Assembly (NCBI RefSeq): GCF_016765655.2
Contig: NZ_CP086106.1
Location: forward strand, 2,910,501-2,974,500
DNA length: 64,000 nt
Source of the DNA: Skermanella mucosa
GTDB lineage: Bacteria; Pseudomonadota; Alphaproteobacteria; Azospirillales; Azospirillaceae
Direction of reading: 5' to 3'
Shown: in pieces, positions 41,965-63,683 of the stretch
Layout of the letters: each line of letters starts with the position of its first letter
How positions within the stretch are numbered: position 1 is the first letter of the stretch
Made by a program: the position numbers and the translations under genes
The notes under the pieces: generated by a model
What the model saw: the letters and a program-made list of their open reading frames with translations, nothing else
Database searches by the model: none
What the model was told of the DNA's origin: nothing

Positions 41965-41995
41965 TCCGGTCACCGATTCCCGTTCCGATCAGATC

Positions 41996-43420: not shown

Positions 43421-43423
43421 CGG

Positions 43424-44609: not shown

Positions 44610-46913
44610 TCACTGGACCGGAAGCCCCTGCCCAGTGCCCTGGATCGGCTCCCTGTAGACGACCGGCAGCAGCGCCTGCATGCGAGACCGCAGTTCGTTG
44701 GTCATGTCGCGGGCATCCTGGGTAGATTGCACGATCCGGGGCCGCAGCAGGATAAGCAGCTCGGTGCGCCGAACGTCGGTCGACCTGGTACCGAACAGCG
44801 GCCCGACGACCGGCAGCCTCGACAAGTAGGGGACGCCGTCCATGCCGGCGGTGGCACCGTCGCGGATCAGGCCGCCCAGGCCGATCGTCTCGCCGCTCCT
44901 GACGGCCACCGTGCTGGCGATCCGGCGCTGGGCGATCGTCGGGGCATCGATCTCGGATGTGGTCGTCACCGTCGCCTCGGAGACGTTCTGCTCGATCTCC
45001 ATCCGGACCATGCCGCCCTCGTTGACCCGCGGGACCACCTGGAGGGTGACGCCGGTATCGACGTACTGGACCGAGTTGACGATCGGCGCGTCGGGATTGA
45101 CGACGCTGACCGCCTGCTGGACGGGGATCGGCACGCTGTCGCCGACCTGGAGAAGCGCCGTCTGGTTGGTCAGCGCCAGGACCTGGGGCGACGAGATCAC
45201 CCGCACGTCCGTGACCGATTCCAGCGCGCGCAGGACGACCCGCGCGTCCGGCGTGTTGAAGGCGACGGCGAAGCCCGGCAGCGCCGGCTGGGGCGTCGCA
45301 CTGGCGCTTTGGCTCAGCAGGGCCTGGAAATTGCCGCTGTTGAAGAACCACTGCAACCCGTACTGGAGCGTATCGTTGAGGGTCACCTCGGCGATGGTCG
45401 CCTCGATCAGCACCTGGAGCGGCTGGGTGTCGAGCTGGCGGAGCGCGTTCTCGATGCGCCGGTACTGCTGCCGGGTGCCCTGGACGATCAGTGCGTTCCG
45501 GCTGTCGTCGGCGATGATCCGCAGGCCCGGTGCCGCCACGGCCGTGAAGCCGCTGCCCTGCCCCTGCCCGCTCCCGTCGAACCCGCCGCCGAACCCGGAG
45601 CCGCCCTGGCCGCCGAAACCGCCGCCGCCCAGGGGATCGCCGCCGAGTCCCCCCTGTCCGCCCTGCCCCAGTCCGCCCTGGCCAAGACCTCCTTGACCCA
45701 GACCGCCCTGGCCCAAGCCGCCCTGCCCCAGCCCTCCCTGGCCGGACGATCCGCCCTGCCCACGGCGGGTCAGGCTGGACTGGGCGAGCTGGCGCGACTG
45801 GAGCCCGGGGGCCAATCCCCCGATCTGCTGGCCGGTCTGCTCGGCGCCGAAGATCTGGCCCAGCGCCGTGGCGAGGTCGGCCGCCCTGCCGTTCTGGACG
45901 GGATAGACGAACAGCTCCGGATCGGACCCGCCGCCCTCCTGGTCCAGGCGCTCGGCCCAGTTGAGCATGCGGTCGATCATGTCGGCGTTGCGCGTCACGA
46001 TCACCAGGGCGCTCATGCGCTCGACCGGCACGAAGCGAACCTCCTCGTTCCCCTCCTCCGATCCGAAGATCGCCGTCAATTCCTCGGCCATCGCTGCGGG
46101 AGCCGCGTAGCGGAGCGGCTTCAGCGCGAAGGACATGCCCTGCAGCTGGTCAAGGTCGATCGCCTGCACGGTCGCTTCCATCAGGTCCAGCTGCGGCTGC
46201 GATCCGGCCAGCACCATGATGTTGCGCTTGGGATCGACCGAGACCACGGCACCCCGGGGCGTCAGCGGGGCCAGCAGCTCGGACGCCTTGGCGGCCTCGA
46301 TGTGCCGCAACGGAAGGACCCGGACCCCCATTCCCGGTCCGCCGCCAAGGGCCGGGCCGTTGGTAAGGCCGGATTCCGCCGGAACCACCTGGTAACCGTT
46401 GGGGAAAGGAACCAGCGACACGCCATGCATCTGGAGCACGCGCTCGACCAGCGGCAGGACGTCGGCCCGCGGGATCGCCCCGCGCGTGTCGACGCTCACG
46501 GTTCCCTCGATCCGCGGATCGACCGCATAGGTCAGTCCGAGAATGTCGCCGAGCACGGCGCGCGCGAACTCCCTGATGTCGGTGTCCGGGAAGTTCAGCT
46601 CCACGCTCTCGCCGGACGGCGACGGCCGGGTGGAGGTCGCGGGCATCTGGATGCGCAGGCCGCCCCGCTCGACATAGGTCGGTCGCCTCGGCGGTTCTTC
46701 CCGGCCGCCGGCGGCAGGCCCGAGCCCCCCGGGTGGAACGAGCGACGTCGGCTGACCCGATGTTCCGCCGTCCGGGCGCATCAGCTCGGACATCCGTTCG
46801 TCCAGGTTGTTCCGCGCCGTACCTTGCGCGCATCCCGCCAGAAGGGCCAGGACGGCACAGGCAGAAATTCCCAGTCTGAAACCGGATGGAGCGGGTCTTT
46901 GCTGTGTCGTCAT
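44610..46913 (-). CDS. gspD: Type II secretion secretin GspD (lipoprotein)
   Basis: The protein has 767 residues. Lipoprotein signal with lipobox LLAGC near residue 28. N0 domain (VELNFPDTDIREFARAVLGDILGLTYAVDP), N1-N3 modules and secretin core (VISSPQVLALTNQTALLQVGDSVPIP at about 510-535; IGLGGLIRDGAT and GVPYLSRLPVVGPLFG near the C-terminus). A glycine/glutamine-rich insert with GQGGL repeats lies in the N3 region. It forms the outer-membrane channel. The lipobox means it can reach the outer membrane with or without a pilotin; no gspS is seen. The ATG at 46913 was chosen because it starts the lipoprotein signal. Confidence 0.95.
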   Translation of the reverse strand: MTTQQRPAPSGFRLGISACAVLALLAGCAQGTARNNLDERMSELMRPDGGTSGQPTSLVPPGGLGPAAGGREEPPRRPTYVERGGLRIQMPATSTRPSPSGESVELNFPDTDIREFARAVLGDILGLTYAVDPRIEGTVSVDTRGAIPRADVLPLVERVLQMHGVSLVPFPNGYQVVPAESGLTNGPALGGGPGMGVRVLPLRHIEAAKASELLAPLTPRGAVVSVDPKRNIMVLAGSQPQLDLMEATVQAIDLDQLQGMSFALKPLRYAAPAAMAEELTAIFGSEEGNEEVRFVPVERMSALVIVTRNADMIDRMLNWAERLDQEGGGSDPELFVYPVQNGRAADLATALGQIFGAEQTGQQIGGLAPGLQSRQLAQSSLTRRGQGGSSGQGGLGQGGLGQGGLGQGGLGQGGLGQGGQGGLGGDPLGGGGFGGQGGSGFGGGFDGSGQGQGSGFTAVAAPGLRIIADDSRNALIVQGTRQQYRRIENALRQLDTQPLQVLIEATIAEVTLNDTLQYGLQWFFNSGNFQALLSQSASATPQPALPGFAVAFNTPDARVVLRALESVTDVRVISSPQVLALTNQTALLQVGDSVPIPVQQAVSVVNPDAPIVNSVQYVDTGVTLQVVPRVNEGGMVRMEIEQNVSEATVTTTSEIDAPTIAQRRIASTVAVRSGETIGLGGLIRDGATAGMDGVPYLSRLPVVGPLFGTRSTDVRRTELLILLRPRIVQSTQDARDMTNELRSRMQALLPVVYREPIQGTGQGLPVQ
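45655..45760. repeat. Imperfect 15-bp tandem repeats in gspD (GQGGL units)
   Basis: About six consecutive 15-bp units encode GQGGL/GLGQG in the secretin N3 region, with synonymous and minor changes. The repeat lengthens a flexible loop facing the periplasmic vestibule. Confidence 0.8.
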
Positions 46914-47480
46914 CGATCGTTCACCGACTAAAAGCAACCAGGGTTCAAGGGAAGACCTGTGTCGGAAACCGAAACTTCCGTCGGTCACCGAGGCTTGCAC
47001 TCACCGATGGTACCGGTTCATTTGTTCTATCACTCATGATCCGGTCACAAGGAAAACTCATCGGAAGGGTAGTGGAGGTAGGTTCCGTCACTCTTGCTGG
47101 GAACCCCTAAGCGTCGGTCGAAAACCAAAGATGTCCATCGCAGGAGTGAATGGGAAAAAGGAGTAGCTCCAGACTGGTCTCCCGGGCTCAACGTCTTGCA
47201 CGGCTTGGTTCACCAGTGGCGCGTACTTCATCGGCTCCTCCGCCTCAGCAATGTTTTCCCATTGCGTTCGGCCGGAAGTATCCTGGACAGTGCCGCCCCG
47301 AATCGGCACGGCGACTCCCCGGACGCTGGAAAATGCATGCCGGCGTCCGACGTGACCAGTACATCTTTAGGCACAATTTGTAAGATCCGGTCCGGAAGAC
47401 CCGCCGGGAAGCGCAGACCCGGCAAGGCGGAACGGCATAAGGCGGGAATAAATTCGACCATTGACCGTCAGCACACGGGT
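46914..47480. other. Divergent promoter region between gspD and prepilin peptidase
   Basis: There are 567 bp with open frames but no recognisable protein; frames continue upstream of the peptidase but lack family similarity. Promoters for gspD-gspK (minus) and the peptidase-gspE-gspF operon (plus) must lie here. No operator could be identified. Confidence 0.4.
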
Positions 47481-48202
47481 ATGATCGCGCCCATGAAGCG
47501 CATATGCGCGTCCACGACAAGGGGGCCGGACAGGCAGGTGGAAGGGTTGGAATTGCTCCTGATCGCATCGGCACCGCTGTTCGGCGGCATCGTCGGCATC
47601 CTGGTGGACCGCTACCCCGCTTCGCCGGATGAGGATGACGCGTGCCCGGCCGCCGCCGGCCGGCCGGCCGCCCTGCGCAGCCTCCATCCCGCCCTGGAGG
47701 CCGCCTGCACCTTGGCGGCCATCCTGGCCGCCGTGCTCTTGCCGATGCCGCTGTCGGCCTTCGCCGCCGTCCTGGGCTGGACCCTGCTCGGCTTGGCGCT
47801 GATCGACCTGCGCCACCTCGAAGTTCCGGACGCCGTTTCCCTTCCGTTGATCCCCGCCGGCCTCGCGGCGACCTGGTGGGTCGAGCCGCAGGCCGTCCCG
47901 GCCCATGCCGCCGCCGCCGCCCTGGGCGCCGGCGCCATCTGGCTGCTGGGAGCGGCCTACCGCCGGGTCCGCGGGCATGAGGGCATCGGCGGCGGCGACG
48001 TCCGGCTGTTCGCCGTGGCCGGTGCCTGGGTCGGGCTGGCGGCCCTGCCGAGCGTCCTGTTCCTGTCCGGCGTCTTCGGCCTGCTCGCCGCGGCATTCCT
48101 CGTCCGCGGCGGCTGGGTAGAACGGGACGGCCGCATTCCCTTCGTCCCTGCATTGTCCGCCGCATTGTGGGTGGTTTTCCTCGTTCCCGAACTGGTGCAG
48201 CC

Positions 48203-48206
<4 letters not shown>
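47481..48206 (+). CDS. gspO: Prepilin peptidase (A24 aspartyl protease), no methylase domain
   Basis: The protein has about 241 residues with about six membrane helices. Catalytic Asp motifs are LIDLRHLEVPDAVSLP and the GxGD motif GIGGGDVRLFAVAG. The N-terminal CxxC zinc/methyltransferase domain of full PilD/GspO is missing, leaving a short APLFGGIVGILVDRYP remnant of the first helix. It cleaves GspG/H/I/J/K leaders. The start is uncertain among ATG 47481, ATG 47493 and GTG near 47538. It overlaps gspE by four bases. Confidence 0.88.
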
Positions 48207-49926
<1,720 letters not shown>

Positions 49927-49927
<1 letters not shown>

Positions 49928-51132
49928 TGCCGCTCTTCCAGTTCGAGGCGGTCGAGCGCGACGGCAAGATCGCCGTCGGCACCCTCAGCGCCGCGGACAG
50001 CGAGGCGGTTGCGCGCCAGCTCCAGGAGCGCGGCGCCGTGCCGCTCCGGATCGAGACCGGCCAGGCCGCTGCCGGTGGATTCGCAGGCAGCCGCAAGTCG
50101 CTGCCGGCCGCCAAGCTTTCGCGTTTCGCCCGCGAACTGGCGCTCCTGCTGGATGCCGGCCTCCGGCTGGACCAGGCGCTGGCGTCGGTCGCCCGGTCGC
50201 GCGACCTGAAGTCGATGGCGCCGGCGCTGACCGTGGTGCTGGAGCAGGTCCGCGCCGGCATCCCCTTCAGCGAGGCGCTGGAGCAGCGACCGGAACTGGC
50301 GCCGCCCTACGCGATCGGTATGATCCGCGCCGGGGAGGCGGCCGGCGCGCTCGCCACCATCCTGCGCAGCCTCGCCGAACTGGCCGACCGGCGGGCAAGG
50401 TCCGCCAAGGCGGTCCGCGCCGCACTGACCTATCCCGCGATCCTGGCGGTCACGGCCGCCGTTTCGATCGGTACCCTGTTCACCGTCGTCCTGCCCCAGC
50501 TCGAACCGCTGTTCGACGGCGCCGGGGACCGGCTGCCGACCATGACCGTCGTGGTGCTGGAGGCCAGCCGCCTGTTCCGGGAATACGGGCTCTACGCGCT
50601 GGCCGCCCTGGTCGCAGCCGCCATCGCCGTCCGCGTCTCGGTCAACGCTCCGGAGACGCGCCGCGCCCTGCACGGGCTGCTGCTGCGGGCTCCCGTGGCC
50701 GGCGGCCTGATCCGCCGGATCGAGGGCGGCCGGTTCGCCCGCCTGTTCTCCACCCTGATCGGCGCCGGCCTGCCGGCCGCGAACGCGCTGGAGCTGGCCC
50801 GGGGCGGCGCCACCAACATGGCGTTCGCCGATGCCCTGAAGGATGTCCGGGGAGCCCTGGTCGAAGGCCGCGGCATCGCCGAGCCGCTGGCCGCCACCCG
50901 TATCTTTCCGGCCGTCCTGCTGGACCTGGCCCGCGTCGGCGAGGAGAGCGGGCGACTGGGCGAAGTCCTGGGCCACGCCGCCAACATCCTGGAGGAGGAG
51001 GTCGAGAGCGAGATCCAGCGCGGCATCGCCCTGCTGGCGCCGCTCCTGACCATCGGCCTGGGCGGCGTGATCGCCTTCATCATCGCGTCCGTCGTCATGG
51101 CGATCCTCAGCATGAACTCGATAGCCATGTAA
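49927..51132 (+). CDS. gspF: Type II secretion inner-membrane platform protein GspF
   Basis: The protein has 401 residues. Two GspF domains, each with a cytoplasmic helical bundle and membrane helix: KLSRFARELALLLDAGLRLDQAL with AIGMIRAGEAAGALATIL, and FARLFSTLIGAGLPAANALELA with DLARVGEESGRLGEVLG. Three membrane segments (about 175, 225 and 375). It is the platform around which GspE works. Last gene of this block; a stem-loop follows at once. Confidence 0.95.
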
Positions 51133-51158
51133 AAGGGCGCTCCGGAAGGGGCGCCCTT
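51133..51158. terminator. Stem-loop between convergent gspF and PepSY genes
   Basis: AAGGGCGC pairs with GCGCCCTT around a 10-base loop, 1 bp after the gspF stop and 11 bp before the stop of the convergent PepSY gene. No strong T-run, so a weak bidirectional terminator. Confidence 0.6.
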
Positions 51159-51168
51159 CGGCGCGGGA

Positions 51169-52533
51169 TCACGCCGTCGCCGGCCGGCGCCGCGCGGCGA
51201 CCAGCAGGTAGTCGAGGACGGCCATGACGACCAAGGAGATCCCGACCAGCGGGAACAAGACCCCGCCGATCATCAGGATCGCCAGCACGCCGCGCAGGGC
51301 ACCCCGGTCCGCCGGCATGGGCGGCACGCCGAGCGAGCCGCCCGGGCGGCGCTTCCACCACATGACCCCGGCGGAGACCGACAGCAGGACGATCGCCAGG
51401 CAGACCACGAGCATGACGATCTGGTTCGCGACGCCGAACTCCTGGCCCATGTGGACATTGATGCCCCATTCCAGCGCCCGGCCGAGCGGGCCGTAGTCGG
51501 CATAGCTCATGTCGATCAGCGGCTTGCCCGTGTACTGGTCCAGGTGGACCACCCGCTGCTGCGACAGGTCGTCCGGATAGGCCGAGGCGCTGTAGACGCC
51601 CTTCGGCCCGCCGGGCAGGCCGACCGCGTAGCCGGGCGCCATGCCCAGCCGGTCGAACGCCGCGACCGCACCATCCAGCCCGATGGAGCCGCCACCGGCC
51701 GGGGCGGATTCGGGCATGCGCGCCTGCTCCAGCGACCAGCTCGTCGGTCCCGACACATGCGCCAGATGCTCGTCCGACATCGGCACGTCGACCCGGACTC
51801 CTGCCGGATAGCCGAAGTTGGAGCCGTTGGCCCATCGGTTGACATAGTCGCCCCAATAGGCGGACCACGGCATTCCGGTGACGGCCAGGAACACGATGAA
51901 GGCGCCGACGAAGATCCCGGTCACGGCGTGCAGGTCGCGCCAGAACACTCGCTGGCGCCGGTTTCCCCGGACTGTCACGACGCCGCCCTCCCGGCCGCGT
52001 GGCCACCAGAGATAGATCCCGGTGCCGACCAGCAGGATCGTCCAGCCGCCGACGATCTCGATGACGCCGTTGGCCACCGGCCCGAACCAGGCGAGGCTGT
52101 GCAGCTGGCGGACCACCCACATGACCGAACCCTTGTCGGGGATATCGCCGAGCACCCGTCCGGAATAGGGATCGACGAACACCGATACCTTGCCGGCCGC
52201 GGTCTTCACGCCGACCTCCGCGGACGAAAGCGGACCCGCCGGAGGCGTGTACTTCACCGCGGTGCCGGGATAAGCCGCGAGCGCCGCATCGACCAGGGTC
52301 GAAGGCGCCGCCCGCTCTCCGGCGCTTGTCTCGACGTATTTCAGATCGTGATAGACGAAGTTGTCGATCTCGTCCCGGAACAGATATGCGGCTCCCGTCA
52401 CCGCCAGGAGGATGAGGAACGGCAGGGCCAGCAGGCCGGCATAGAAGTGCCAGCGCCAGACCGCCCGGTAGACGCTGGTGGACGAGACCGCCGCTGCCCG
52501 CGACGGGACGGGTCCGAGGGAAGTTTCTGTCAT
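51169..52533 (-). CDS. PepSY-associated membrane protein (PiuB-like)
   Basis: The protein has 454 residues with about four to five membrane helices: RWHFYAGLLALPFLILLAVTGAAYLF, VVRQLHSLAWFGPVANGVIEIVGGWTILLVGTGIYLWW (as two segments), DLHAVTGIFVGAFIVFLAVTGMPW and MLVVCLAIVLLSVSAGVMWW. PepSY segments include VFVDPYSGRVLGDIPDKG and RVVHLDQYTGKPLIDM. Conserved His in the helices could bind haem, as in iron-regulated membrane reductases. Such proteins are linked to siderophore or metal reduction. Here it pairs with a DUF2946 gene 73 bp upstream and lies amid copper-enzyme genes, so a copper or iron redox role is inferred. Confidence 0.82.
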   Translation of the reverse strand: MTETSLGPVPSRAAAVSSTSVYRAVWRWHFYAGLLALPFLILLAVTGAAYLFRDEIDNFVYHDLKYVETSAGERAAPSTLVDAALAAYPGTAVKYTPPAGPLSSAEVGVKTAAGKVSVFVDPYSGRVLGDIPDKGSVMWVVRQLHSLAWFGPVANGVIEIVGGWTILLVGTGIYLWWPRGREGGVVTVRGNRRQRVFWRDLHAVTGIFVGAFIVFLAVTGMPWSAYWGDYVNRWANGSNFGYPAGVRVDVPMSDEHLAHVSGPTSWSLEQARMPESAPAGGGSIGLDGAVAAFDRLGMAPGYAVGLPGGPKGVYSASAYPDDLSQQRVVHLDQYTGKPLIDMSYADYGPLGRALEWGINVHMGQEFGVANQIVMLVVCLAIVLLSVSAGVMWWKRRPGGSLGVPPMPADRGALRGVLAILMIGGVLFPLVGISLVVMAVLDYLLVAARRRPATA

Positions 52534-52606
52534 GACTCGATTCCGATGGCATGAGGCACGCGCGCGGGCTGGCTGCCGGGCGCGGCGTCCTCAGTGAATT
52601 TCAGAC

Positions 52607-53101
52607 TCAGCAGGATTGGGGTAGAACCATCGGAGGGGGAGCACGCGGGCGTACCGCCGTCAGGAAATGCCTCGCCGCGGGCGCCTCGGCGCGCCGGGCA
52701 TGGTCCAACCTCGCGGGCTGCGGGCAAGGCTCTACCGCGTGGCCGTCGGCTGCGGGAACCGGCGGAGCCGTTCCAGAGCAGACGGCGCAGAGGTTGCAAG
52801 TCTGCCCGGGCGAACCCTGTCCGGGCTTCTCCTTCGAAACCGGCTGCCGGTCGTGTCCCGCGTGCTGATGTGCCGATGGCGCGTGCACCGGCAGGGCGGC
52901 GGCAAGATGATCGCCGGACGCTGCCGCCGGCGCCGGATGCCGCGCTCCGATGGGCACATGGCCGGCCATGACCAGCTGGGAGAATGCGGCGAACAGCGCC
53001 AGCAGGATTACCGCGGCGTGCAAGCCGTTCCGGCCGGTGGCGGAACGAACTCCGCCCCGCCGCAGGGTAGTGCCGGGAACGTCTCTGCGGGGTTTCGCCA
53101 T
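52607..53101 (-). CDS. DUF2946 family Cys/His-rich membrane-anchored protein
   Basis: The protein has about 164 residues. An N-terminal helix (LHAAVILLALFAAFSQLVMAGHVPIGARHP) is followed by a His-rich linker (APSAHQHAGHDRQ) and TCNLCAVCSG (CxxC-xxC), then a Pro/Ala-rich end. The DUF2946 family is found with copper and TonB-receptor genes and is thought to be metal-linked; no activity is known. It precedes the PepSY gene on the same strand and is divergent from the multicopper oxidase operon. ATG 53128 upstream is an alternative start. Confidence 0.75.
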   Translation of the reverse strand: MAKPRRDVPGTTLRRGGVRSATGRNGLHAAVILLALFAAFSQLVMAGHVPIGARHPAPAAASGDHLAAALPVHAPSAHQHAGHDRQPVSKEKPGQGSPGQTCNLCAVCSGTAPPVPAADGHAVEPCPQPARLDHARRAEAPAARHFLTAVRPRAPPPMVLPQSC

Positions 53102-53649
53102 CGATCGGTTTGCCTGACGATCCGCCAATAAAGTCGGTGGGATAGGTCCAGGACGAGTGGTCTACCGGAATTATTCCGCCTCCACGACCAGAATCAGGGA
53201 GCGATCCTTCCCGATCCGTGCCCGCTGGGCCGCGCCCGCCGGATGTCCAGGACCCGAAAGGTGGAGACCCAACCACATGAAGGGACAACTCACTATAACC
53301 GTCGGAAAGAAATCTCCCCTGGAGCGGTACTCCCTGGAATTACGGGAATATGGATTCATCCGGTACGTCATCTTCACGAACACGACGCAGAGATGCCGAG
53401 GTCGATGTGTCCGGAAGTCGGATAGACAACGGTCCCATCAACACTCTAGTCCGGAGGCACGAAAAAGTTTGAATCTCGACTTTGTTTTTTCACCGTAAAG
53501 TATAAATCGCTTCTTCTGACGTGCTCGCAAGTTAACAGCGACCGGTCAAAGAAAAATTTACCAATTCGATCCAGACGGAACAGAGGAATTCCTTTGTCCG
53601 ATCGTCCGAACGCGTGCCGTTCTGAGCAGAATTCAAGGAGTAAGAACTA
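53102..53649. other. Divergent promoter region before the multicopper oxidase operon
   Basis: There are 548 bp without a supported gene. The right half (about 53455-53520) is A/T-rich, with TATAAATC at 53501, and is a likely promoter for the oxidase operon. AAGGAGTAAGA just before 53650 is its ribosome-binding site. No copper-operator consensus was recognised. Confidence 0.45.
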
Positions 53650-54828
53650 ATGCGCAGGCGCGAATTCCTCAAGTACGGCAGTGCCATGGCGGCGTTTGCC
53701 ACGGTTTCGACCTCCCTTCCGGCGATCCTTTCAGCGCAGACCTCCGAGGATGCGCCGACCGGCGAAGAGGCCGATTTCGACCTGGAGATCGTCGATGTCG
53801 ATGTCGAGCTGATCGACGGCAGCATCGTCCCGATGTACGCCTTCGCCCCCACCGGCAAGGAGCCATCCATTCCCGGCCCCATTCTCCGGGTGACCCAGGG
53901 CGATACCGTCCGCATCGATATCCGAAACTCCAGCACCCGACCGCACGGCTTCCAGATCGTCGGCCAGACCAACGCGGTCGTCTCCGGGCTGGCTCCCGCC
54001 GACGGCGACGGCGAAGACAAGATGCGGATCGAGTTCGTCGCGACGAAGCCGGGAACCTACTTCTACGTCGATGGCGACAATTCCCCGATCAACCGGGTGC
54101 TCGGCCTGCACGGGGCGCTGATCGTGGAGCCGAAGAACGGCTATGCCGACGGCAAGAACCGAAAGAAGCCGATGCCCTACGCGCCGGGCGCCGCGACACC
54201 CGCCATGAAGTCGCTGTTCACGGCGCTCGGCGAGTCGACGATCGACGGCGAACCCGCCCGCTTCCCGGGCAAGCCATGGCAGAAGGGACGGGAGTATGTC
54301 TGGATCTTCAACCAGATAGACCCGGCCATGTGCCGTCGGATCGGCGGCGGGGAGCTTGTCACCCCAGCCGAGTTCGAGAGCCAGTTCCATCCTCGGTACT
54401 TCACGATCAACGGCCTGTGCGGGCTCGACTCCGCCCATGACAAGGCGACCTGCCCGACCGGGCACGCCGGCGAGCCGGCGCTGATCCGCTGCATGAATGC
54501 CGGACTGGCGACCCACAGCCCGCATATCCACGGCAACCATGTCTTCGTGCTGACCGAGAGCAACAAGAACGGTCTGCCGATCTACCAGACCAGCCTGAAC
54601 GAGCACGATGTCTGGACCATGCCGCCGATGATGATCAAGGACGTCCTGCTCCCCTACACGGCGCCGCCGGACGTGCCGCCGGCTCCCTGGAAGATGGTCC
54701 AGGAGAAGTACCCGTTGCGCTACCCGATGCACTGCCACAACGAGATCTCCCAGACCTCCGCCGGCGGCTCCTATCCGATGGGGTTGGTCACGGACTGGCA
54801 TATCGACGGACCGGTGGCCACCAGCTGA
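53650..54828 (+). CDS. Multicopper-oxidase-like protein A (Tat-exported; C-terminal copper motifs only)
   Basis: The protein has 392 residues. A Tat signal (MRRREFLKYGSAMAAFATVS) is cut near AQTS at about 31. Cupredoxin domain 1 (about 40-165) has only RPHGFQIVG (His99) where HxHG is expected, and FYVDGDNSP where HCH or HSH would be, so it lacks a full copper set. Domain 2 has motif 3, HSPHIHGNH (His289, 292, 294, 297), and motif 4, MHCHNEISQ (His361-Cys362-His363). The downstream neighbour (protein B) has the opposite pattern. Alone, A could not build a standard trinuclear site. It is first in a run with protein B, SCO and gspL/M/C, suggesting folded export by Tat and then T2SS (inference). 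Confidence 0.85.
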   Translation: MRRREFLKYGSAMAAFATVSTSLPAILSAQTSEDAPTGEEADFDLEIVDVDVELIDGSIVPMYAFAPTGKEPSIPGPILRVTQGDTVRIDIRNSSTRPHGFQIVGQTNAVVSGLAPADGDGEDKMRIEFVATKPGTYFYVDGDNSPINRVLGLHGALIVEPKNGYADGKNRKKPMPYAPGAATPAMKSLFTALGESTIDGEPARFPGKPWQKGREYVWIFNQIDPAMCRRIGGGELVTPAEFESQFHPRYFTINGLCGLDSAHDKATCPTGHAGEPALIRCMNAGLATHSPHIHGNHVFVLTESNKNGLPIYQTSLNEHDVWTMPPMMIKDVLLPYTAPPDVPPAPWKMVQEKYPLRYPMHCHNEISQTSAGGSYPMGLVTDWHIDGPVATS

Positions 54829-54936
54829 GTCACCGTCCCCGCCGATACGCAAAACCCTGGTTCAACCGACAGCACGGCTGCACGGACATTCCGACACGCC
54901 GAGCGGCGAAGTCCCGAGCGCCCTGGAGAGCTGAGA

Positions 54937-55998
54937 ATGACGACCATCTACCGCCCCATATCCGATCCCCTGGAATTCGATACCTTCGGCTGCCACCCGT
55001 TCGAGAACGATCCCGCGACGCCTGACCGGACCAACCGGCAAGTCTTCCTTCGCCGCCAGGTCGCCGACTGGAACGTGGACATGAAGGATGGCTCCCAGCT
55101 TCAGTTCTGGGGCTTCAAGGACCCGGACGTTTCCGGAAGCGACTCCCCCTGGCCGTCCAAGCTCATCCGGGTGAAGCAGGGCCAGGTCTTCCATTGCGAG
55201 TTCAAGCCGACCAAGGGTGCCCACACCATCCATTGGCACGGCATCGAGCCCACGCCCATGAACGACGGCGTCGGCCACACCTCGTTCGAGGTCAAGAGCA
55301 GCTACGTCTACCAGTGGTGCGCCCACCAGGCCGGGACCTATCTGTACCACTGCCACAAGAACACGGTCCTTCATTTCGAGATGGGCATGTACGGCGTGCT
55401 CATCGTCGATCCGCTGACCAAGAGCCCGGACACCAACAACCCCAACTATCTCTACGATCCCTTGCCGCGGGACGAGGTCTCCGACATCACGCCCGGCGCG
55501 CCCTACTCGGCCGAATCGATCCTGGTGTTCGACGACGTCGATCCGGTGTGGCACAAGCTCGACCACAATGCCGGCATGTGCGGCGACGATGTCGGACTGG
55601 ACAAGTTCAACCCGACCTACTTCCTGATCAACGGCGTCCACAACGGCAGGACCCAGACGGACTCGCGGACGGTCACCCGGATGACCGCCGGGCGCAACCT
55701 GATGCTCCGCGTCGCCAACGCCTCCTACAGCCGGCTGCATATCACCCTGCCGTTCAACTGCTACATCGTCGAGGTGGACGGCCGTCCCCTGCGGACCAAT
55801 CGTGCCAAGGGCTGGTTCTCGGCTCCGGAATTCAAGGCGGCCGGCAGCAGGCTCGAGGTCGCCGTGGCCCAGCGCTACGGCATCTGGGTCCCGGAAGTGC
55901 CGCGCGGCGACCATCGGATCATCGGCAACTTCCATCACTGGATCACGAACAAGCGGCACTTCGACGGCACCGCCATCGCCAAGATCGTGGCTCTCTGA
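54937..55998 (+). CDS. Multicopper-oxidase-like protein B (no signal peptide; N-terminal copper motifs only)
   Basis: The protein has 353 residues. Domain 1 has motif 1, HTIHWHGIEP (His96, 99, 101), and a combined trinuclear/type-1 motif, YHCHKNTVLHFEMGMYG (His138-Cys139-His140, His146, Met149). Domain 2 (about 200-350) has a cupredoxin-like pattern (NLMLRVANASYSRLHI) but no HxH or HCH ligands. It complements protein A, encoded 108 bp upstream, which has motifs 3 and 4 only. No signal peptide is visible (MTTIYRPISDPLEFDTFG), so export may rely on piggy-backing on the Tat substrate A (inference). It ends 18 bp before the SCO gene. Confidence 0.85.
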   Translation: MTTIYRPISDPLEFDTFGCHPFENDPATPDRTNRQVFLRRQVADWNVDMKDGSQLQFWGFKDPDVSGSDSPWPSKLIRVKQGQVFHCEFKPTKGAHTIHWHGIEPTPMNDGVGHTSFEVKSSYVYQWCAHQAGTYLYHCHKNTVLHFEMGMYGVLIVDPLTKSPDTNNPNYLYDPLPRDEVSDITPGAPYSAESILVFDDVDPVWHKLDHNAGMCGDDVGLDKFNPTYFLINGVHNGRTQTDSRTVTRMTAGRNLMLRVANASYSRLHITLPFNCYIVEVDGRPLRTNRAKGWFSAPEFKAAGSRLEVAVAQRYGIWVPEVPRGDHRIIGNFHHWITNKRHFDGTAIAKIVAL

Positions 55999-56016
55999 GC
56001 GGAAGGAATCTCGACC

Positions 56017-56988
56017 ATGCGGACCATCACTTTGCCGAGGGGTGCCGGACGCGCGGCGGTCCTCGCCGGGCTCCTGATGGGCGGTGCCGCCCTCCTGCTC
56101 GGCACGGCCCCGCTCTCCGCCCGGGCGGAGGGCGGCCACGCTGGCCATTCGGAACGGGGCCATTCGGAACGGGGCCATTCGGAACCGGGCCATTCGGAAC
56201 CGGCCCAAACGGAGCCGGCAAAGGCCGATGCCGCCCCGGCCGCCGCGGGCCATGGCGGTTACGGCGCCCACAGCGGCTGGCCGGAGCCGAAGAAGCTGGG
56301 CGGCGACTTCAGCCTGACCGACCATACCGGACGCAAGGTGACGCTGGCCGACTTCAAGGGCAGGGCTACCGCCTTCTACTTCGGCTATACCCAGTGCGAC
56401 GATATCTGCCCGATCATCGGCACCAAGCTTGGCATGGCGGTCGACCTGATGGGGGAGATGGGGGATCAGGTCAACATCGCCATGATCAGCGTCGATGACC
56501 GCAACGACGGGCCGGAGCAGCTCGCGACCTTCGTCGCCAAGCAGCACCCGCGCCTGATCGGCCTGTCCGGCAACCGCCGCGAAATCTACGAGGTCGCGGC
56601 CAAGTACCGGGTCCGCCGCGACTACGTGATGCAGAACCAGGTGGCCAAGGAAGGCGACGAGCCCGCCGGGGAGCATGCCGGCGGCCACGGCGCCCACGGC
56701 AACGGGGATCACGGCAACGGGGATCACGGCCAGGAGCAGCACGAGGCCACTCCGATCTCCGCCGAGGCGACCTCCGAGGAAACGACCGAAGGACCTCGGA
56801 CGCCGGGACAGCGGATCAGGATCCGGTCGGCTTCCGACGATGCGACGCGGCTGCACAACATGGCGATGGCGCATACCACGCACATCTACCTCCTGAACAA
56901 GGAAGGCCAAGTTGTCCGATATATTTACCCAAGTATGTCGCCAGAACAGCTTGCCAAGCGGCTCACCGACCTGATCAATGAAGGCTGA
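56017..56988 (+). CDS. SCO1/SenC family copper chaperone with His-rich insertions
   Basis: The protein has 323 residues. Signal or anchor helix (about 8-36), then a GHSER/GHSEP repeat stretch. The thioredoxin-like SCO domain has FYFGYTQCDDICPIIG (CxxxC copper site), ISVDDRNDGPEQL and the distal His in AHTTHIYLLNKEG. A second His-rich insert (AGGHGAHGNGDHGNGDHGQEQ) of about 60 residues interrupts the domain before the distal His; ordinary SCO proteins lack it. It probably loads copper into the oxidase pair encoded 18 bp upstream rather than cytochrome oxidase, whose genes are absent here. Confidence 0.92.
   Translation: MRTITLPRGAGRAAVLAGLLMGGAALLLGTAPLSARAEGGHAGHSERGHSERGHSEPGHSEPAQTEPAKADAAPAAAGHGGYGAHSGWPEPKKLGGDFSLTDHTGRKVTLADFKGRATAFYFGYTQCDDICPIIGTKLGMAVDLMGEMGDQVNIAMISVDDRNDGPEQLATFVAKQHPRLIGLSGNRREIYEVAAKYRVRRDYVMQNQVAKEGDEPAGEHAGGHGAHGNGDHGNGDHGQEQHEATPISAEATSEETTEGPRTPGQRIRIRSASDDATRLHNMAMAHTTHIYLLNKEGQVVRYIYPSMSPEQLAKRLTDLINEG
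56143..56202. repeat. Four 15-bp tandem repeats in the SCO gene
   Basis: Four near-identical 15-bp units (GGCCATTCGGAACGG type) encode GHSER-GHSER-GHSEP-GHSEP, a His-rich periplasmic linker next to the signal sequence. Copy number could vary in frame. Confidence 0.9.
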
Positions 56989-57036
56989 TCGCCGCCGGCG
57001 GGAAACGGCGGGTGATCGCGATTGGAGATGCTGTTC

Positions 57037-58080
57037 ATGGCCGCGACGGGCACGCTTACCGAAAACGCACTGAAGGGCTGGCGCTGGTGGACCGGCGAGC
57101 TGAGCTCCTGCGTGCCGCGCCGGCTGCGCACGCTGGTCCAGCCCAAGGACCTGCGCGTCGAACTGGCGGCCGACGCGATCACCGTCCGCCGGTCGGCCCG
57201 CTCGTCCTCGACCTTTCCGCTGCCGCTCGGCGCCGCCGACCGCGAGTCCCTGAAGCGGCTGCTTAAGCGTCGCCGCATAGCGGTCGTGTTCGCGGCGGGC
57301 CGCGCCGTCACCAGCACGGTCGAACTTCCGCTCGCTGCGGAGCGCTCGGCCCTCCAGGCCCTTCGCTTCGAGGTCGACCGGCGCACCCCGTTCAAGGCGG
57401 ACCAGGTCCATCTCGGGTATCGCGTCCGGCAGCGCGACAGCGCCGGACGCCGCCTCGTGGTCGACATGATCTGCGTTCCGAAGCGCCTGCTCGTGCCGAT
57501 CCGCGATGTCCTGGCCGACGCGGAGGGATCCATCGGATCGCTGTCCGTGGACCTTCCCGACGGCAGCGTCGATCTCGGTTTCGGCGCCGCCCGCCCCGCC
57601 GTCGGCGGTGCGGGACGGATCGTGGCGTTGGGCTGGGCGATCGGCCTGGGCGCCGCGCTGGCTGGTGTCCTGGTTCCCCTGGTCCGCCTCGAGACGACGG
57701 CCGAAAGCCTGGAGGCCGAGGTTGCAGACCTGCGCCTGAGGGCCGGAAAGGCGGGTGAACTCGAACGCCAGATCACCGAGATCGCCGACCGCGAGAAGGC
57801 GCTCGATGCGTTCCTGGCCGACAAGGTTCCCCTGGTCCTGCTGGCGGAACTGGCCCGCATCACCGGTGACGACACCTACCTGACGGGCTTCCGGTTCGAT
57901 GGCCGCTCCGTCCAGATCGACGGCTCGGCCAGATCGGCCGCCGGCGTCGCCGAGGTGATCGAGGGATCGCCCCATTTCCGGAACCCCGTCTTCCGCACGG
58001 CCGTCGTTCCCTCGACCGATGCGGGCGAGGATTTCTCCCTCAGCTTCGAGCTGGAGCGCGCGGCACCGGAGGTCCGATGA
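57037..58080 (+). CDS. gspL: Type II secretion protein GspL-like (PilN-domain)
   Basis: The protein has about 347 residues. The N-terminal cytoplasmic part (about 1-190) is a reduced PilM/GspL-like domain (LRVELAADAITVRRSARS, LRFEVDRRTPFKADQVHLGY). One membrane helix lies at about 200-222 (RIVALGWAIGLGAALAGVLVPLV), then a periplasmic coiled coil and PilN-like ferredoxin fold (VLLAELARITGDDTYLTGFRFDG). GspL links GspE to the periplasmic assembly. ATG 57037 has GGAG at good spacing; ATG 57028 and TTG 57022 are alternatives. It follows SCO by 48 bp and overlaps gspM by four bases. Confidence 0.85.
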   Translation: MAATGTLTENALKGWRWWTGELSSCVPRRLRTLVQPKDLRVELAADAITVRRSARSSSTFPLPLGAADRESLKRLLKRRRIAVVFAAGRAVTSTVELPLAAERSALQALRFEVDRRTPFKADQVHLGYRVRQRDSAGRRLVVDMICVPKRLLVPIRDVLADAEGSIGSLSVDLPDGSVDLGFGAARPAVGGAGRIVALGWAIGLGAALAGVLVPLVRLETTAESLEAEVADLRLRAGKAGELERQITEIADREKALDAFLADKVPLVLLAELARITGDDTYLTGFRFDGRSVQIDGSARSAAGVAEVIEGSPHFRNPVFRTAVVPSTDAGEDFSLSFELERAAPEVR

Positions 58081-58655
58081 ACACCCTGACCATTTCACCC
58101 CGTCTCTCGAAGCTGCTGGCGCTGACGATCCTCGTCACGCTGGTCATGGGATCGGTCAACCTCGTCGTCCTTCCCCTGCTGGACCGCTTCGAGGCGGCCC
58201 AGGCCAGGCTGGCCGACGCGGCGGCCTGGCGTGCGCGCCTGACGGCGGCGGTGCAGCGCATACCCGCGCTCGAACAGACGCTGCAGGAAACCAAGGAGGC
58301 CGCCGGCAGCCGGAAGGGCATCCTGCGCATCGAGAACGAGGCGCTCGGGTCCGCCGAATTCCAGAAGCTCATCCAGAAGCTCGTGGCGGAATCCGGCATC
58401 CAGCAGCGCAGCATCCAGCCGGTGCCGGCACGGCGGGAGCATGATGCGGTCCAGCTCGGGATCCGCGTCAGGGCCACCGGCGACGAAGCGTCCCTGGCAA
58501 GGCTTCTCGGCGCCGTCCAGCAGCATGATCCGTCGCTTGCCGTGCGCAGCCTTCATATCGCCGCCGACTCCGTCCGCGGAGACCCGTCGGCACAGGCCCC
58601 CCAGATCGACCTGCAGGCGGATTTCGACATCCTGGCCATCGAGGACCGTAAGTAA
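58077..58655 (+). CDS. gspM: Type II secretion protein GspM-like (PilO-type)
   Basis: The protein has 192 residues. A membrane helix (about 14-36, LALTILVTLVMGSVNLVVLPLL), a coiled coil (ALEQTLQETKEAAGSR) and a ferredoxin-like domain (FQKLIQKLVAESGIQQRSIQPV) match GspM/PilO. It partners GspL in the inner-membrane platform. It overlaps gspL by four bases and shares one base with the next gene. Confidence 0.85.
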   Translation: MNTLTISPRLSKLLALTILVTLVMGSVNLVVLPLLDRFEAAQARLADAAAWRARLTAAVQRIPALEQTLQETKEAAGSRKGILRIENEALGSAEFQKLIQKLVAESGIQQRSIQPVPARREHDAVQLGIRVRATGDEASLARLLGAVQQHDPSLAVRSLHIAADSVRGDPSAQAPQIDLQADFDILAIEDRK

Positions 58656-59233
58656 TGAGCCCTTCGTCCCCCCTTCTCATGTCGTTGTTCGCCATGGCAG
58701 CCGGCGGCATGGTGCTGGCCCAGGGACTGGGCTGGCAGCCGGAAGAGCCGGCGACGGACATCCCGGCGGCGTCCTTCGAGGTGGAACGGGTGCAGCCCCA
58801 CGACACGGGCGACCAGGTCGCGGCCGATATCGACGTGCTGCTGCAAAGGCCCGCCTTCACGCCCGGCCGACGTCCTTCCGTCCCGGCGGTCGCCGGGACC
58901 GCCACCACGGAGGAGGAACTGGCGCAGGCCGACGTTCCGGTGCCGAAGGTTCTCGGGGTTGCCGTCTCGTCGGTCCGGGCGGTGGCGGTGGTGACGGAGG
59001 CCGACGGCGGCCCGACCCGCCGGGTCGCGACCGGGGATGAGCTCGCCGGTTGGCACGTCGTCGCGATCGACCGCGAGAGGGTGACCTTCGGATCGAATGC
59101 GGTGCAAGCCGTCGTTTATCTGAAGCGATCGGGGGACCGGCAGCGGGTGGAGGTCACTCCCCTGGTCTCCGAGGTTGCGGAACGGGATGCGCGGGAACAG
59201 TCGCAGAAGCCCGAACCCGATCCCCTTTTCTGA
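58655..59233 (+). CDS. GspC/GspN-like type II secretion protein
   Basis: The protein has 192 residues. An N-terminal membrane helix (LLMSLFAMAAGGMVLAQGLG) precedes a periplasmic segment LQRPAFTPGRRPSVP and an HR-like beta domain (VPKVLGVAVSSVRAVAVVTEADGG, RRVATGDELAGWHVVAIDRERVTF). That is the arrangement of the GspC HR domain that contacts secretin N0, or of short alphaproteobacterial GspN-labelled proteins. No PDZ domain. It would supply the otherwise missing inner-to-outer membrane link of this T2SS (inference). Confidence 0.7.
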   Translation: MSPSSPLLMSLFAMAAGGMVLAQGLGWQPEEPATDIPAASFEVERVQPHDTGDQVAADIDVLLQRPAFTPGRRPSVPAVAGTATTEEELAQADVPVPKVLGVAVSSVRAVAVVTEADGGPTRRVATGDELAGWHVVAIDRERVTFGSNAVQAVVYLKRSGDRQRVEVTPLVSEVAERDAREQSQKPEPDPLF

Positions 59234-59436: not shown

Positions 59437-61602
59437 ATGCGGCTCGGTCCACGCCAATGGCTCTTGTCAGCCTCGACTTGTCTCCTTACCGCTGCGACGG
59501 TGACCAGCCTCTGGTCGTCCCTGGCAGTCGCCCAGACCACGCCGGAACAGGAGCCGACCACCGAACTCGAGATCATCGAGGATATCGAAGATACCGAGCC
59601 CGAAGACGAAGTCATCGACGTCACCGAACCCGATGACCGTCCCCTGGAATCCCTCAAAGGCAAGGCGCCGCCGCTGCCCGACCTGACCGGCATCGTCAAG
59701 AATGCCGCCTGGGCCAAGGCCGCCGGCAAGGCGCTGTTCTGGGACCAGCAGATCGGAAGCGACACGGTGGCATGCGCCAGCTGCCATTTCCGGGCCGGGG
59801 CCGATCCGCGCGTGACCAACCAGCTCAACCCCGGGCTCAATGCCGGCGACAAGATGTTCGGCTCCACGGCGGGCACCGGCCTGATGGCGTCCGGCCAGGC
59901 CGCCGGCCCCAACATCACGCTGAAGCCGGAAGATTTCCCGTTCCGCAAACTGCAGAATCCGAACAACGCGAAGAGCAAGGTGCTGTTCGACACCAACGAC
60001 GTGGCGGCTTCGGCGGGCACCTTCGCCGGCGACTATGTCGGCACGATCGAACGCCCCAAGCAGCGGCCGCGGGCCACCAACACCGACCGTTGCAGGATGT
60101 CCACCCACGAGGTCTTCAACGTCCTTGGCCACGGCACGCGCAAGGTCGAGCCCCGCAATAGCCCGACCGTCATCAACGCCGTGTTCTACCACCGGAACTT
60201 CTGGGACGGCCGGGCGAACAACCTGTTCAGCGGCGTCGGCGTGTTCGGCCGCCGGGATATCCGCAACGACCCCGCGGCGCGTCTTCTGGTGATGAAGCCC
60301 GACGGCTCCGTTGCCTTGCAGAACGTCCGCCTGGAGAACGCGAGCGCCGCTTCCCAGGCGGTGGGACCGCTGCTCAGCGATTTCGAAATGTCCTGCACCG
60401 CGCGCACCTTCGCCGACATCGGCCGCAAGATGATGGCCCAGCAGGCACTCAAATTGCAGACGGTCCATACGGAAGACAGCCTTTTCGGCACCGGCGGACC
60501 GGTGGGCGACATCATCACCGCTTCCAAGATCGGCCTGAAGCATACCTACGGGGAAATGATCCAGAGGGCGTTCGCCAAGCGCTTCTGGGGGTCTCCCGAC
60601 CGCTTCAGGTTCGAGACCGGCGCCGACGGCACCGTCAGCGTGGTGCAGGACCCCAACGGCTACACCCAGATGGAGCTGAACTTCCCGCTCTTCTTCGGCC
60701 TCTCCGTCATGCTGTACGAGGCCACCCTCATCTCCGACGACAGCCCGTTCGACCGCAACCAGCTTACGGCACAGCAGAAGCGCGGCAAGGAGATCTTCGA
60801 GGGCAAGGGCAAGTGCATCGCCTGCCACGACGGCCCGCTGATGTCGAAGGCCGCCCATGTGTCGGACCAGGGAAAGCAGCCCAAGCTGGTGGAGCGCATG
60901 CCCATGAGCGACGGCAATCCCTCGCTCTATGACAACGGCTTCTACAATATCGGCGTCCGGCCTGTGCAGGAGGACCTGGGCGTGGGCGGCACCGATCCCT
61001 GGGGCAAGCCGCTCTCCTTCTCCCGCCAGTGGGTCCAGGGGCGCAAGCTCGACTCCTTCCTGATCAACGCCTGCGATTTCGAAGTTCCTTTCCCCGGCCA
61101 GGAAGCAGTCGGGTGCGATGGGGACGTCGTTCCTCCGGGCATCAACCTGAGGGACGAGCGCCTGGCGGTGAACGGCGCCTTCAAGACCCCCACGCTGCGG
61201 AACGTGGCGCTGACCCCGCCCTACTTCCATAACGGCGGGCAGGCCACCCTGCAGCAGGTCATGGCCTTCTACAACCGCGGCGGCGACTTCAGCAGCGCGA
61301 CCAAGTCCCCCGACGTGACCCCGCTGGGCCTGACCCTCGCCGAGCAGGATGCGCTGGTGGCCTTCATGCAGTCGCTGACCGACGAAAGGGTTCGCTGCTC
61401 GCGCGCGCCCTTCGACCACCCCGAACTCCTGATCCCCGACGGCCACAAGCCGGACACCGTGAAGGCCGACGGTCGCCTGGCCGACCGGCTGCGGGTCCTG
61501 AACGCCACCGGCGCCGCCGGTTACCCCTCCGACAGGTGTCCGTCCAACACCGGCAATCTTTTCGACATGGCGCGCAACATCAACGGCATGCCTATCCGGT
61601 AA
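59437..61602 (+). CDS. Large di-haem cytochrome c peroxidase/MauG-like protein
   Basis: The protein has 721 residues. A signal peptide (cut near AVAQTT, about 33) precedes an acidic stretch (about 38-70). Two haem c sites: CASCH at residues 113-117 and CIACH at 460-464. Conserved CCP/MauG segments include ALFWDQQIGSD, PTVINAVFYHRNFWDGRA, GFYNIGVRP and AFKTPTLRNVALTPPYFHNG with TLQQVMAFYNRGGDF. Standard bacterial CCPs are about 320-470 residues; the roughly 345-residue spacing between haem sites here is long. It would act in the periplasm or outside on peroxide or as a protein-modifying oxidase. It lies 203 bp after the T2SS/oxidase run on the same strand. Confidence 0.9.
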   Translation: MRLGPRQWLLSASTCLLTAATVTSLWSSLAVAQTTPEQEPTTELEIIEDIEDTEPEDEVIDVTEPDDRPLESLKGKAPPLPDLTGIVKNAAWAKAAGKALFWDQQIGSDTVACASCHFRAGADPRVTNQLNPGLNAGDKMFGSTAGTGLMASGQAAGPNITLKPEDFPFRKLQNPNNAKSKVLFDTNDVAASAGTFAGDYVGTIERPKQRPRATNTDRCRMSTHEVFNVLGHGTRKVEPRNSPTVINAVFYHRNFWDGRANNLFSGVGVFGRRDIRNDPAARLLVMKPDGSVALQNVRLENASAASQAVGPLLSDFEMSCTARTFADIGRKMMAQQALKLQTVHTEDSLFGTGGPVGDIITASKIGLKHTYGEMIQRAFAKRFWGSPDRFRFETGADGTVSVVQDPNGYTQMELNFPLFFGLSVMLYEATLISDDSPFDRNQLTAQQKRGKEIFEGKGKCIACHDGPLMSKAAHVSDQGKQPKLVERMPMSDGNPSLYDNGFYNIGVRPVQEDLGVGGTDPWGKPLSFSRQWVQGRKLDSFLINACDFEVPFPGQEAVGCDGDVVPPGINLRDERLAVNGAFKTPTLRNVALTPPYFHNGGQATLQQVMAFYNRGGDFSSATKSPDVTPLGLTLAEQDALVAFMQSLTDERVRCSRAPFDHPELLIPDGHKPDTVKADGRLADRLRVLNATGAAGYPSDRCPSNTGNLFDMARNINGMPIR

Positions 61603-62050: not shown

Positions 62051-63094
62051 TCAGTCGATGCGGATCTCCACCTCGACCAGGGGAGAGTTGGCGCCTGCAT
62101 ACTGCGCGCGGACCTTCGCGGGGCATCCCAGCGTCGTCGTGATGCGGGCGTCGAAGTCATACACGCCGAATGTCCCGACGTCCGCGACAGCGGGAGTCGT
62201 ACCGTATTCGGCGCGCGCGATCCCGTTCAAGGCGGGCTTGAAGATGTTGACGTTGCCCGTCGCATTGCCGGACGGGTTGTGGACGCCTCCCCGGACTTCC
62301 AGGTCGATCGTATTGGCGTCACGTTCCCGGCACTGTGCCCTCTGGATGCTGACGGCAGGATTTGCCGCCACCGCGTCGACCAGTTCGCCGCCCGTGGCTT
62401 CGACGACGAATGCGAACAGAACCTTCTCGTCGTTGGGCGGCGTGCCGATTTTGCCGTAGTGCCCCTCCGCCGCGACGAGCGTACCCGGCAGAAGCGTCGT
62501 CGGCTTGATCCGGAAACCGTACTCGTTGAGCATCGGCGAGCCCTTGTAGCGGGCATCGTAGAGAGGGTGAGTGCCGTCCAGGTTTTTCTTCATGGCGGGA
62601 TAGGACTGGCCGGTCGGAGTGCTGGGCAGGAGGATGACCTTGCTGCCTTCGATGTCAAACCAACGCTCACCTGCCGTGTTCACGTTTTTCCGGACCGTCC
62701 CAAGAAGGACGTTTTCAGCCGTGTCGGCGTAGAAGGTGTCGGCCGTGACATTACCGAATTGGTCGCTCGTGCCGGTGACGATCGAGGTGCCGCCGATGAA
62801 CCCCCGTTCGCTGCCCGTAAAGCCGGGAATGGCCTTCGTGCTCCACAGATCCTCGGCACTGATCGTGCCCGAGGCAGTCGTGATGATCGTTCCAGGAACT
62901 ATATCGACCCAGACCCCCATCACCTTCGCTCGGCTGTTGTCCTTGTCCAACTCCTCGAGCTTGCCTTCGATCTCGACTTCCTGCGTTGTTACCTGGGCCA
63001 CGGCAGGCGCAGGAGCCATCACGACGGTCGCTGCCAACATCGGCTGGGTCAGCAGGGCTGTAGACATAAGAATAGTGCGAGTGAGATTGCGCAT
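62051..63094 (-). CDS. Secreted protein of unknown function
   Basis: The protein has 347 residues. The signal peptide (MRNLTRTILMSTALLTQPMLAATVVMAPAPAVAQ, cut near residue 34) is clear. The mature part is beta-rich: EVEIEGKLEELDKDNSRAKVMGVWVDIVPGT resembles an OB-like or DUF5666-type strand set, then GFIGGTSIVTGTSDQFGNVTA and a C-terminal immunoglobulin-like stretch (ARAEYGTTPAVADVGTFGVYDFD). Two cysteines (QCRERD, LGCPAK) could form a disulfide. No family was recognised with confidence. It faces the oxidase/T2SS run and could be a T2SS cargo (inference). ATG 63094 was preferred to GTG 63100. Confidence 0.75.
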   Translation of the reverse strand: MRNLTRTILMSTALLTQPMLAATVVMAPAPAVAQVTTQEVEIEGKLEELDKDNSRAKVMGVWVDIVPGTIITTASGTISAEDLWSTKAIPGFTGSERGFIGGTSIVTGTSDQFGNVTADTFYADTAENVLLGTVRKNVNTAGERWFDIEGSKVILLPSTPTGQSYPAMKKNLDGTHPLYDARYKGSPMLNEYGFRIKPTTLLPGTLVAAEGHYGKIGTPPNDEKVLFAFVVEATGGELVDAVAANPAVSIQRAQCRERDANTIDLEVRGGVHNPSGNATGNVNIFKPALNGIARAEYGTTPAVADVGTFGVYDFDARITTTLGCPAKVRAQYAGANSPLVEVEIRID

Positions 63095-63683
63095 GAGCAC
63101 GTCCTCGGTGCCGCTCTCCTATTAAGAGCGTTATGTTACAGATGCAGGCTTTCGGGAAACCCTCAAGGTAACTGTCTTCAACTATCGTATCGGACAGGCA
63201 TGGGTTATTATTACTTGAAAGTCAGCAAAGCGCTCTTCGGCATATGGCATGGACTTTGGTCATATATTGAATGAACCAGCCTCTCCAGCCACTACGGACT
63301 CTTGTTATTTTCTTCTCCGGGCCGACGGAACGACGAATTAGCACCTCCCCTATCACTGCTTTCACTGCGATGACGGTTGGGAGAAGCCGATATTCCTCAG
63401 AAAATAGCATCTTGAAGGAGTAAACCTTTTCTGCAGGGGCGGGGGCTGGAATACCCGGCCTGCAGGTACTCCGCCCGGCTTCCGACAGCATCTTCGGCAG
63501 ATCGCGGAAGTAGACAGGTGCGGTGGAGAAGACCATGGAGTGACGAGTCCGGAAAACTCCATGCATATCTCGGATTCGTCGACAATGTTTACCTGGATCA
63601 AGGCGCACCCTCCCCCGGTCGGCCAGGATTTTCCGAAATGCGCCTGCGGACGGCTCCGCGGGTTCCGAGGGAGGAAGACGGCG
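63095..63683. other. Divergent intergenic region
   Basis: There are 589 bp between the secreted-protein gene and the stress-protein gene. Minus-strand frames present here have no recognisable domain and irregular composition. The left part is A/T-richer and should hold both promoters. GGGAGGAAGACGGCG precedes the next gene as its ribosome-binding site. Confidence 0.45.

Follow-up and report, generated by a model that had tools for sequence, protein, structure and literature searches.

Copper ligands of a two-domain multicopper oxidase divided between two adjacent genes: a candidate hetero-oligomeric enzyme

Multicopper oxidases belong to textbook enzymology, and their two-domain members known so far are, to our knowledge, homomers. 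The window analyzed here, a 64,000-nucleotide stretch from the 7.84 Mb genome of Skermanella mucosa, carries on its forward strand two neighboring cupredoxin genes, A and B, whose products each hold only half of the histidines of a trinuclear copper site (TNC). This raises the question whether the two proteins are remnants of an oxidase, proteins with separate functions, or the two parts of one enzyme. Based on sequence comparison, we propose, with a probability of roughly 0.8, that A and B together form a hetero-oligomeric multicopper oxidase of the two-domain kind, in which both would be obligate subunits and which would have originated by gene duplication and complementary loss of ligands.

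Two genes and their divided copper ligands

Gene A (53650..54828, + strand) encodes a two-domain cupredoxin protein of 392 aa whose domain 2 carries motifs 3 and 4. The product of gene B (54937..55998, + strand), also a two-domain cupredoxin protein, has 353 aa, and its domain 1 carries motifs 1 and 2 as well as a type-1 copper site. The genes are separated by 108 bases. The presence of two cupredoxin domains per chain in both A and B is based on Pfam and on the homology between the two proteins, which spans domain 1 and continues through the linker (hhalign 99.3%). Matches of A to Cu-oxidase_3 and Cu-oxidase_2 exceed the Pfam cut-off, as does domain 1 of B, and domain 2 of B is a weak Cu-oxidase match below cut-off (E 0.074). 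A and B also share a reading frame, the interval between them (window 54826-54936) holding one in-frame TGA and no further stop; the four A-B pairs of Skermanella aerolata, judged from their coordinates, are not in one frame. Database records name genes of this kind hypothetical protein or multicopper oxidase domain-containing protein, and the class is therefore easily missed.

Among the structures in the PDB, both proteins are related to two-domain oxidases and to nitrite reductases, the latter being at the top of the list for A. The best PDB matches of the B profile are 2zwn and 3g5w, which we take to be type C two-domain multicopper oxidases. Domain 1 of type C enzymes, like that of B, bears motifs 1 and 2 along with the type-1 site; these enzymes likewise have two cupredoxin domains per chain, and their TNC is expected between domain 1 and domain 2 of different chains. 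An assignment as copper-containing nitrite reductase, which has a two-domain fold, was rejected (NCBIfam TIGR02376: 46.7 bits for A and 38.6 bits for B, versus a cut-off of 296.3); B has the HWHG and HCH motifs of multicopper oxidases, which typical nitrite reductases lack. The copper resistance oxidase CopA/PcoA was rejected as well (NCBIfam TIGR01480: 36.2 bits for A and 53 bits for B, versus a cut-off of 478.95). Nor was the pair firmly assigned as an Mn(II) oxidase; passages of PMC8218464 searched for wording such as two-domain or split yielded three, all unrelated.

An earlier note on this DNA had described the eight TNC histidines as divided four and four between A and B. Each of the 19 A and 17 B sequences tabulated shows this division, although several of them are near-copies, so these counts are not independent events; the four histidines of each protein were found where the note had placed them. 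In B, motif 1 (55222..55239, + strand) comprises the expected TNC ligands His99 and His101, as well as His96, which the note had left unnamed and which is the likely other type-1 histidine. Motif 2 and the remainder of the type-1 site (55348..55389, + strand) comprise His138-Cys139-His140, His146, Met149 and Met151, and every residue listed here for B is invariant in 17/17 sequences. The proposed type-1 ligands His146 and Met149 are thus both present, but the axial methionine is, judged by spacing, more likely Met151 than Met149, the axial residue presumably lying at His+5 as in other oxidases. In A, motif 3 (His292-Ile-His294, within THSPHIHGNH; 54523..54531, + strand) provides expected TNC ligands, and motif 4 (54730..54738, + strand) consists of His361-Cys362-His363. 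His289, His292, His294, His297, His361 and His363 are invariant in 19/19 A, and the TNC histidines remain so where local identity to the A of the window drops to approximately 26%; Cys362 is Cys in 17/19 and Ser in the two A proteins of the Burkholderiales.

The complementary positions are lost, as had also been claimed. In domain 1 of A, PHGFQI replaces the HTIHWHG of B and YVDGDN replaces its YHCHKN, and the lost positions vary (Q, T, R or A at position 102; V, L, I, Q, T, Y or S at position 140). Domain 2 of B has no HxH pair matching motif 3 or 4 of A, and its position 268 (H, D, Y, G, K, R or Q; gapped in Arthrobacter) and position 333 (H, K, R, L or Y) vary; the profile alignment ends just short of motif 3, which makes the register of this domain relative to that motif uncertain. 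A type-1 site in the N-terminal domain is found in B (His96, Cys139, His146 and Met151 in 17/17). In A the place of the second type-1 histidine, located by the spacing known from other oxidases, is Ser in 17/19 and Glu in 2/19 sequences, leaving A without a type-1 site of its own. Neither A nor B holds all eight TNC histidines within one chain, and together they carry all eight in 17/17 tabulated pairs. Another histidine of B, His206 (window 55552-55554), lies in the linker, outside the standard ligands, and is invariant in 17/17 B; it could be a structural residue or an additional metal ligand.

Conservation is distributed asymmetrically over the domains. Domain 2 of A has a mean identity of 71.5% versus 58.0% for domain 1, and is the more conserved domain in 89/91 comparisons, while domain 1 of B has a mean identity of 77.5% versus 52.8% for domain 2, and is the more conserved in 91/91; the 91 comparisons were made among 14 alphaproteobacterial pairs and are not independent, and the domain limits were drawn by eye. 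The constrained domains of both proteins are those that would build a shared site.

Linkage, recurrence and history of the split

Among 82 genomes of the family, five match the A profile, and the B profile, run on the identical 82 genomes, matches the same five. The A-B adjacency, whose conservation the earlier note had proposed to check, is found throughout, with 15 of 15 B places adjoining an A: fourteen adjoin a full-length A, and at the remaining one (G363 C225), on a short contig, the neighbor is the latter half of an A, the first half of an A being found on a separate contig (G363 C255). Full-length A genes number 15 in the five genomes, and one of them, at C1:177202-178383 of the genome containing the window, is without B. 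An integrase gene (rve, HTH_21) is located just downstream of this lone A, and a search of the locus for a remnant of B found none. The corresponding locus (L006 5971-11879, C1 near 177 kb) shows the lone A as a paralogue, about 80% identical, beside the integrase gene and a gene for a CopA-like multicopper oxidase. Close relatives of the pair are held by Skermanella aerolata and Indioceanicola profundi, and searches with the A and B profiles found neither gene in G366, the fifth genome of the genus Skermanella. A marked amplification of the pair is seen in G363, with seven B copies in a single genome. The identity matrices of A and B across the 14 full pairs are correlated (Pearson 0.96, Spearman 0.69; 0/5000 permutations reach the Pearson value), a correlation that would also be expected from close linkage alone.

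These observations bear on the possibility that A and B are decaying duplicates of a two-domain oxidase that form no active enzyme. Each protein does lack half of the ligands, and one A stands alone beside an integrase gene; the pairs are nevertheless kept in five genomes, with B present in as many as seven copies, and decay predicts neither invariant ligands nor conservation focused on the ligand-bearing domains. We therefore regard this explanation as very improbable.

In samples of higher rank, the A profiles match 1/289 genomes of the class (the own genome) and 2/398 genomes of the phylum (the own genome and G718), and the B profile matches the same 2/398. The G718 match is one chain of 669 aa with a complete ligand set, and is therefore not a split pair. 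A profile of the Burkholderiales A matches 1/398 genomes of the phylum (G591). In the sampled genomes the split pair is rare and patchy; phyla beyond the Pseudomonadota were reached through the plasmid collection only. A scan of the viral contigs for relatives to deepen the alignments found none.

The earlier note had also proposed to look for co-loss of the same motifs in other genomes, and the loss does recur. The gene order is reversed in Cupriavidus metallidurans CH34 and in Paraburkholderia, where the B-like gene comes ahead of the A-like one and the ligands are divided four and four, and the division is found again in G591, where B is followed by A with a 4-base overlap (by eye). A one-off artefact was ruled out, since the split recurs in independent records. 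In Paraburkholderia the gene after the pair encodes a large protein with cadherin-like domains. Arthrobacter sp. FW305-BF8 has a fusion-like locus (L020 4719-7066), where the frame of A runs into a B-like N-terminal part and the rest of B is in another frame; this break could reflect a genuine shift of frame, a pseudogene or an error in sequencing, but the locus does bring A and B together in a single arrangement. On a plasmid of Paenarthrobacter TC1 an A was found and no B was detected; a second place in Paenarthrobacter reported by the search was left out of the analysis.

The two A genes without adjacent B (C1:177202-178383 and Paenarthrobacter TC1) speak against obligate pairing. They would suit an arrangement in which A and B act apart, B serving as a type-1 copper electron carrier or resembling a reductase, its half site unused, and A as a copper-binding or chaperone-like neighbor, and so would the complete type-1 site owned by B and the nitrite reductases among the PDB relatives of both proteins, which head the list for A. 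Such separate action leaves without a role the four domain-1 TNC histidines kept by B (17/17) and the four domain-2 TNC histidines kept by A (19/19), which has no type-1 site to serve, and it is further countered by the complementary split recurring in either gene order and in the fusion-like locus. We consider it unlikely, and favor the two proteins as subunits of one oxidase.

In a tree of 27 rows, the A proteins all fall together (support 58/19), as do the B proteins (72/82), in each case with weak support and with long branches flagged. The alphaproteobacterial and actinobacterial A group together (100/99), and the same grouping is seen in B (100/99). A single origin of the split across lineages is plausible from these sequences. 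The earlier note had regarded close homologues that are active alone and have a complete internal ligand set as evidence against its claim. Such sets were found, but in distant relatives only, which resemble the ancestral kind: single-chain relatives with all eight TNC histidines occur in Halorussus (L072), Salarchaeum (L074), Deinococcus (L073) and G718 (L078). Their motif spelling is near that of B (HTxHxHG ... YHCH ... H..MG[ML]), that of the haloarchaeal relatives is also near that of A (MHCH ... YPGGM), and they differ from A and B in holding the eight histidines in one chain. The tree left out two Sulfitobacter oxidases, which are complete in one chain and have ordinary multicopper oxidase spelling. 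The simplest history suggested by these comparisons would be that an ancestral one-chain, two-domain oxidase gene was duplicated and that the copies shed opposite halves of the ligands.

Export and gene neighborhood

The N terminus of A (53650..53739, + strand) displays RRREFLK followed by a hydrophobic stretch, and is Tat-like by comparison with the Tat consensus; its Pfam TAT_signal score is 12.3 bits, below the cut-off of 22.7. By eye, RR is present near the N terminus in 15/15 alphaproteobacterial A listed, and no signal-like stretch was seen in the 14 alphaproteobacterial B inspected. A Tat-like signal in A alone, as the earlier note had described, is thus seen in the alphaproteobacterial pairs. 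In the Burkholderiales Cupriavidus and Paraburkholderia and in G591, both partners begin with a Sec-like stretch (by eye). Since each of these partners seems to be exported by its own signal, Tat piggy-backing is no defining feature of the pair. In the Alphaproteobacteria, where only A has a Tat-like signal, that signal probably serves to export B as well, in folded form and together with A.

Directly downstream of B lies a gene for a SCO1/SenC-type copper chaperone (56017..56988, + strand), which is found near 10/14 alphaproteobacterial pairs, the window included, and which probably supplies the copper; locus L038 ends about 340 bases past B, so that neighboring genes could not show there. 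The SCO1 protein has a short His-rich repeat, GHSERGHSERGHSEPGHSEP, near its N terminus (window 56143-56202). The SCO1 gene is followed by type II secretion genes (57022..59233, + strand), which encode a PilN/GspL-like protein, GspM and a third protein whose GspN-like label is based on position only, and which are located near 6/14 pairs, the window included. Next is a gene for a MauG-like di-haem protein with two CXXCH (59437..61602, + strand), near 5/14 pairs, again including the window. In the wider neighborhood (window 41443-59233), genes for GspG, GspD, a prepilin peptidase, GspE and L- and M-like proteins, recognized by Pfam or comparison, surround A, B and SCO1, and the window also contains an ECF sigma factor gene. 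On the opposite strand, positions 62051-63100 (-) encode a secreted-looking protein of 349 aa with no Pfam match at E 0.1; its relatives are present near 6/11 other pair loci searched, including L059 and L067, which are without SCO1, and it is a possible functional partner of the pair. The function of the pair is likely extracytoplasmic, and perhaps secreted.

A proposed joint active site

In six-domain oxidases such as ceruloplasmin and MnxG, the TNC is built by the first and last domains, with empty domains between them; these are single polypeptides of six domains, compared with two chains of two domains each for A and B. The fungal heterodimeric laccase has two different subunits, one of which holds the whole active site. 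A search of titles and abstract openings, with subscription journals mostly outside its scope, found no description of a split or heteromeric bacterial multicopper oxidase among the papers listed. In two-domain oxidases, according to passages of PMC13151041, the TNC is bound where domain 1 of a monomer meets domain 2 of its neighbor. A joint site of A and B fits this inter-chain arrangement. The known enzymes, whose trimers and types those passages describe, differ in being homotrimers. Their eight TNC histidines are all present in one chain, each site drawing four from domain 1 of a subunit and four from domain 2 of the adjoining one, in contrast to the division between two proteins in A and B.

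A joint active site, as the earlier note had proposed, is supported by the co-occurrence of A and B, the recurrence of the split in either gene order, the fusion-like locus in Arthrobacter, the invariance of the ligands and the conservation of the domains that bear them. Because each protein holds half of the site, the enzyme probably works only when A and B join. B would contribute the domain-1 ligands together with the type-1 copper, the entry point of electrons in the type C layout, and A would contribute the domain-2 half only, completing the oxygen-reducing site. A trinuclear site, which would be impossible for A or B alone, would be formed at the contact between domain 2 of A and domain 1 of B, and electrons would pass from the type-1 copper of B via His138-Cys139-His140 to the shared site, where O2 would be reduced. 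The substrate, as a guess, would be a metal ion or a phenol. AlphaFold2 gave unusable models both for a read-through chain from A across the TGA into B (mean pLDDT 35.5; 782 aa, 9 rows) and for B by itself (mean pLDDT 39.6; 5 rows), and the claim of A-B pairing therefore rests on comparison, not on structure.

Strict alternation of A and B is impossible in a ring of three two-domain subunits, so that not all three of its interfaces could work; the actual quaternary structure would be non-classic or include inactive interfaces. The spare interfaces of a mixed ring leave room for a reading in which the sites completed by A and B belong to a third, full multicopper oxidase or to another subunit rather than to each other, and the genome does have other multicopper oxidase matches. 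However, no third cupredoxin was found beside the pairs in searches with A, B and nine window neighbors as queries, which one unlike these could escape, and the fusion-like Arthrobacter locus favors direct A-B pairing; a third partner of this kind is accordingly improbable. Returning to A and B as each other's partners, we lean, with somewhat less confidence than for the pairing itself, towards a class of obligate hetero-oligomeric oxidases spread over several lineages of the Pseudomonadota and probably the Actinomycetota, in which a homotrimer would have given way to two interdependent subunits in a non-classical arrangement, and in one lineage of which Tat piggy-backing would release only assembled enzyme.

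If true, the A-B pair would represent a clean example of gene duplication followed by complementary degeneration that affects the metal ligands themselves, and would show a route from a homomer to an obligate heteromer. It would also offer a natural system in which to study Tat hitchhiking and the assembly of an inter-chain trinuclear copper site.
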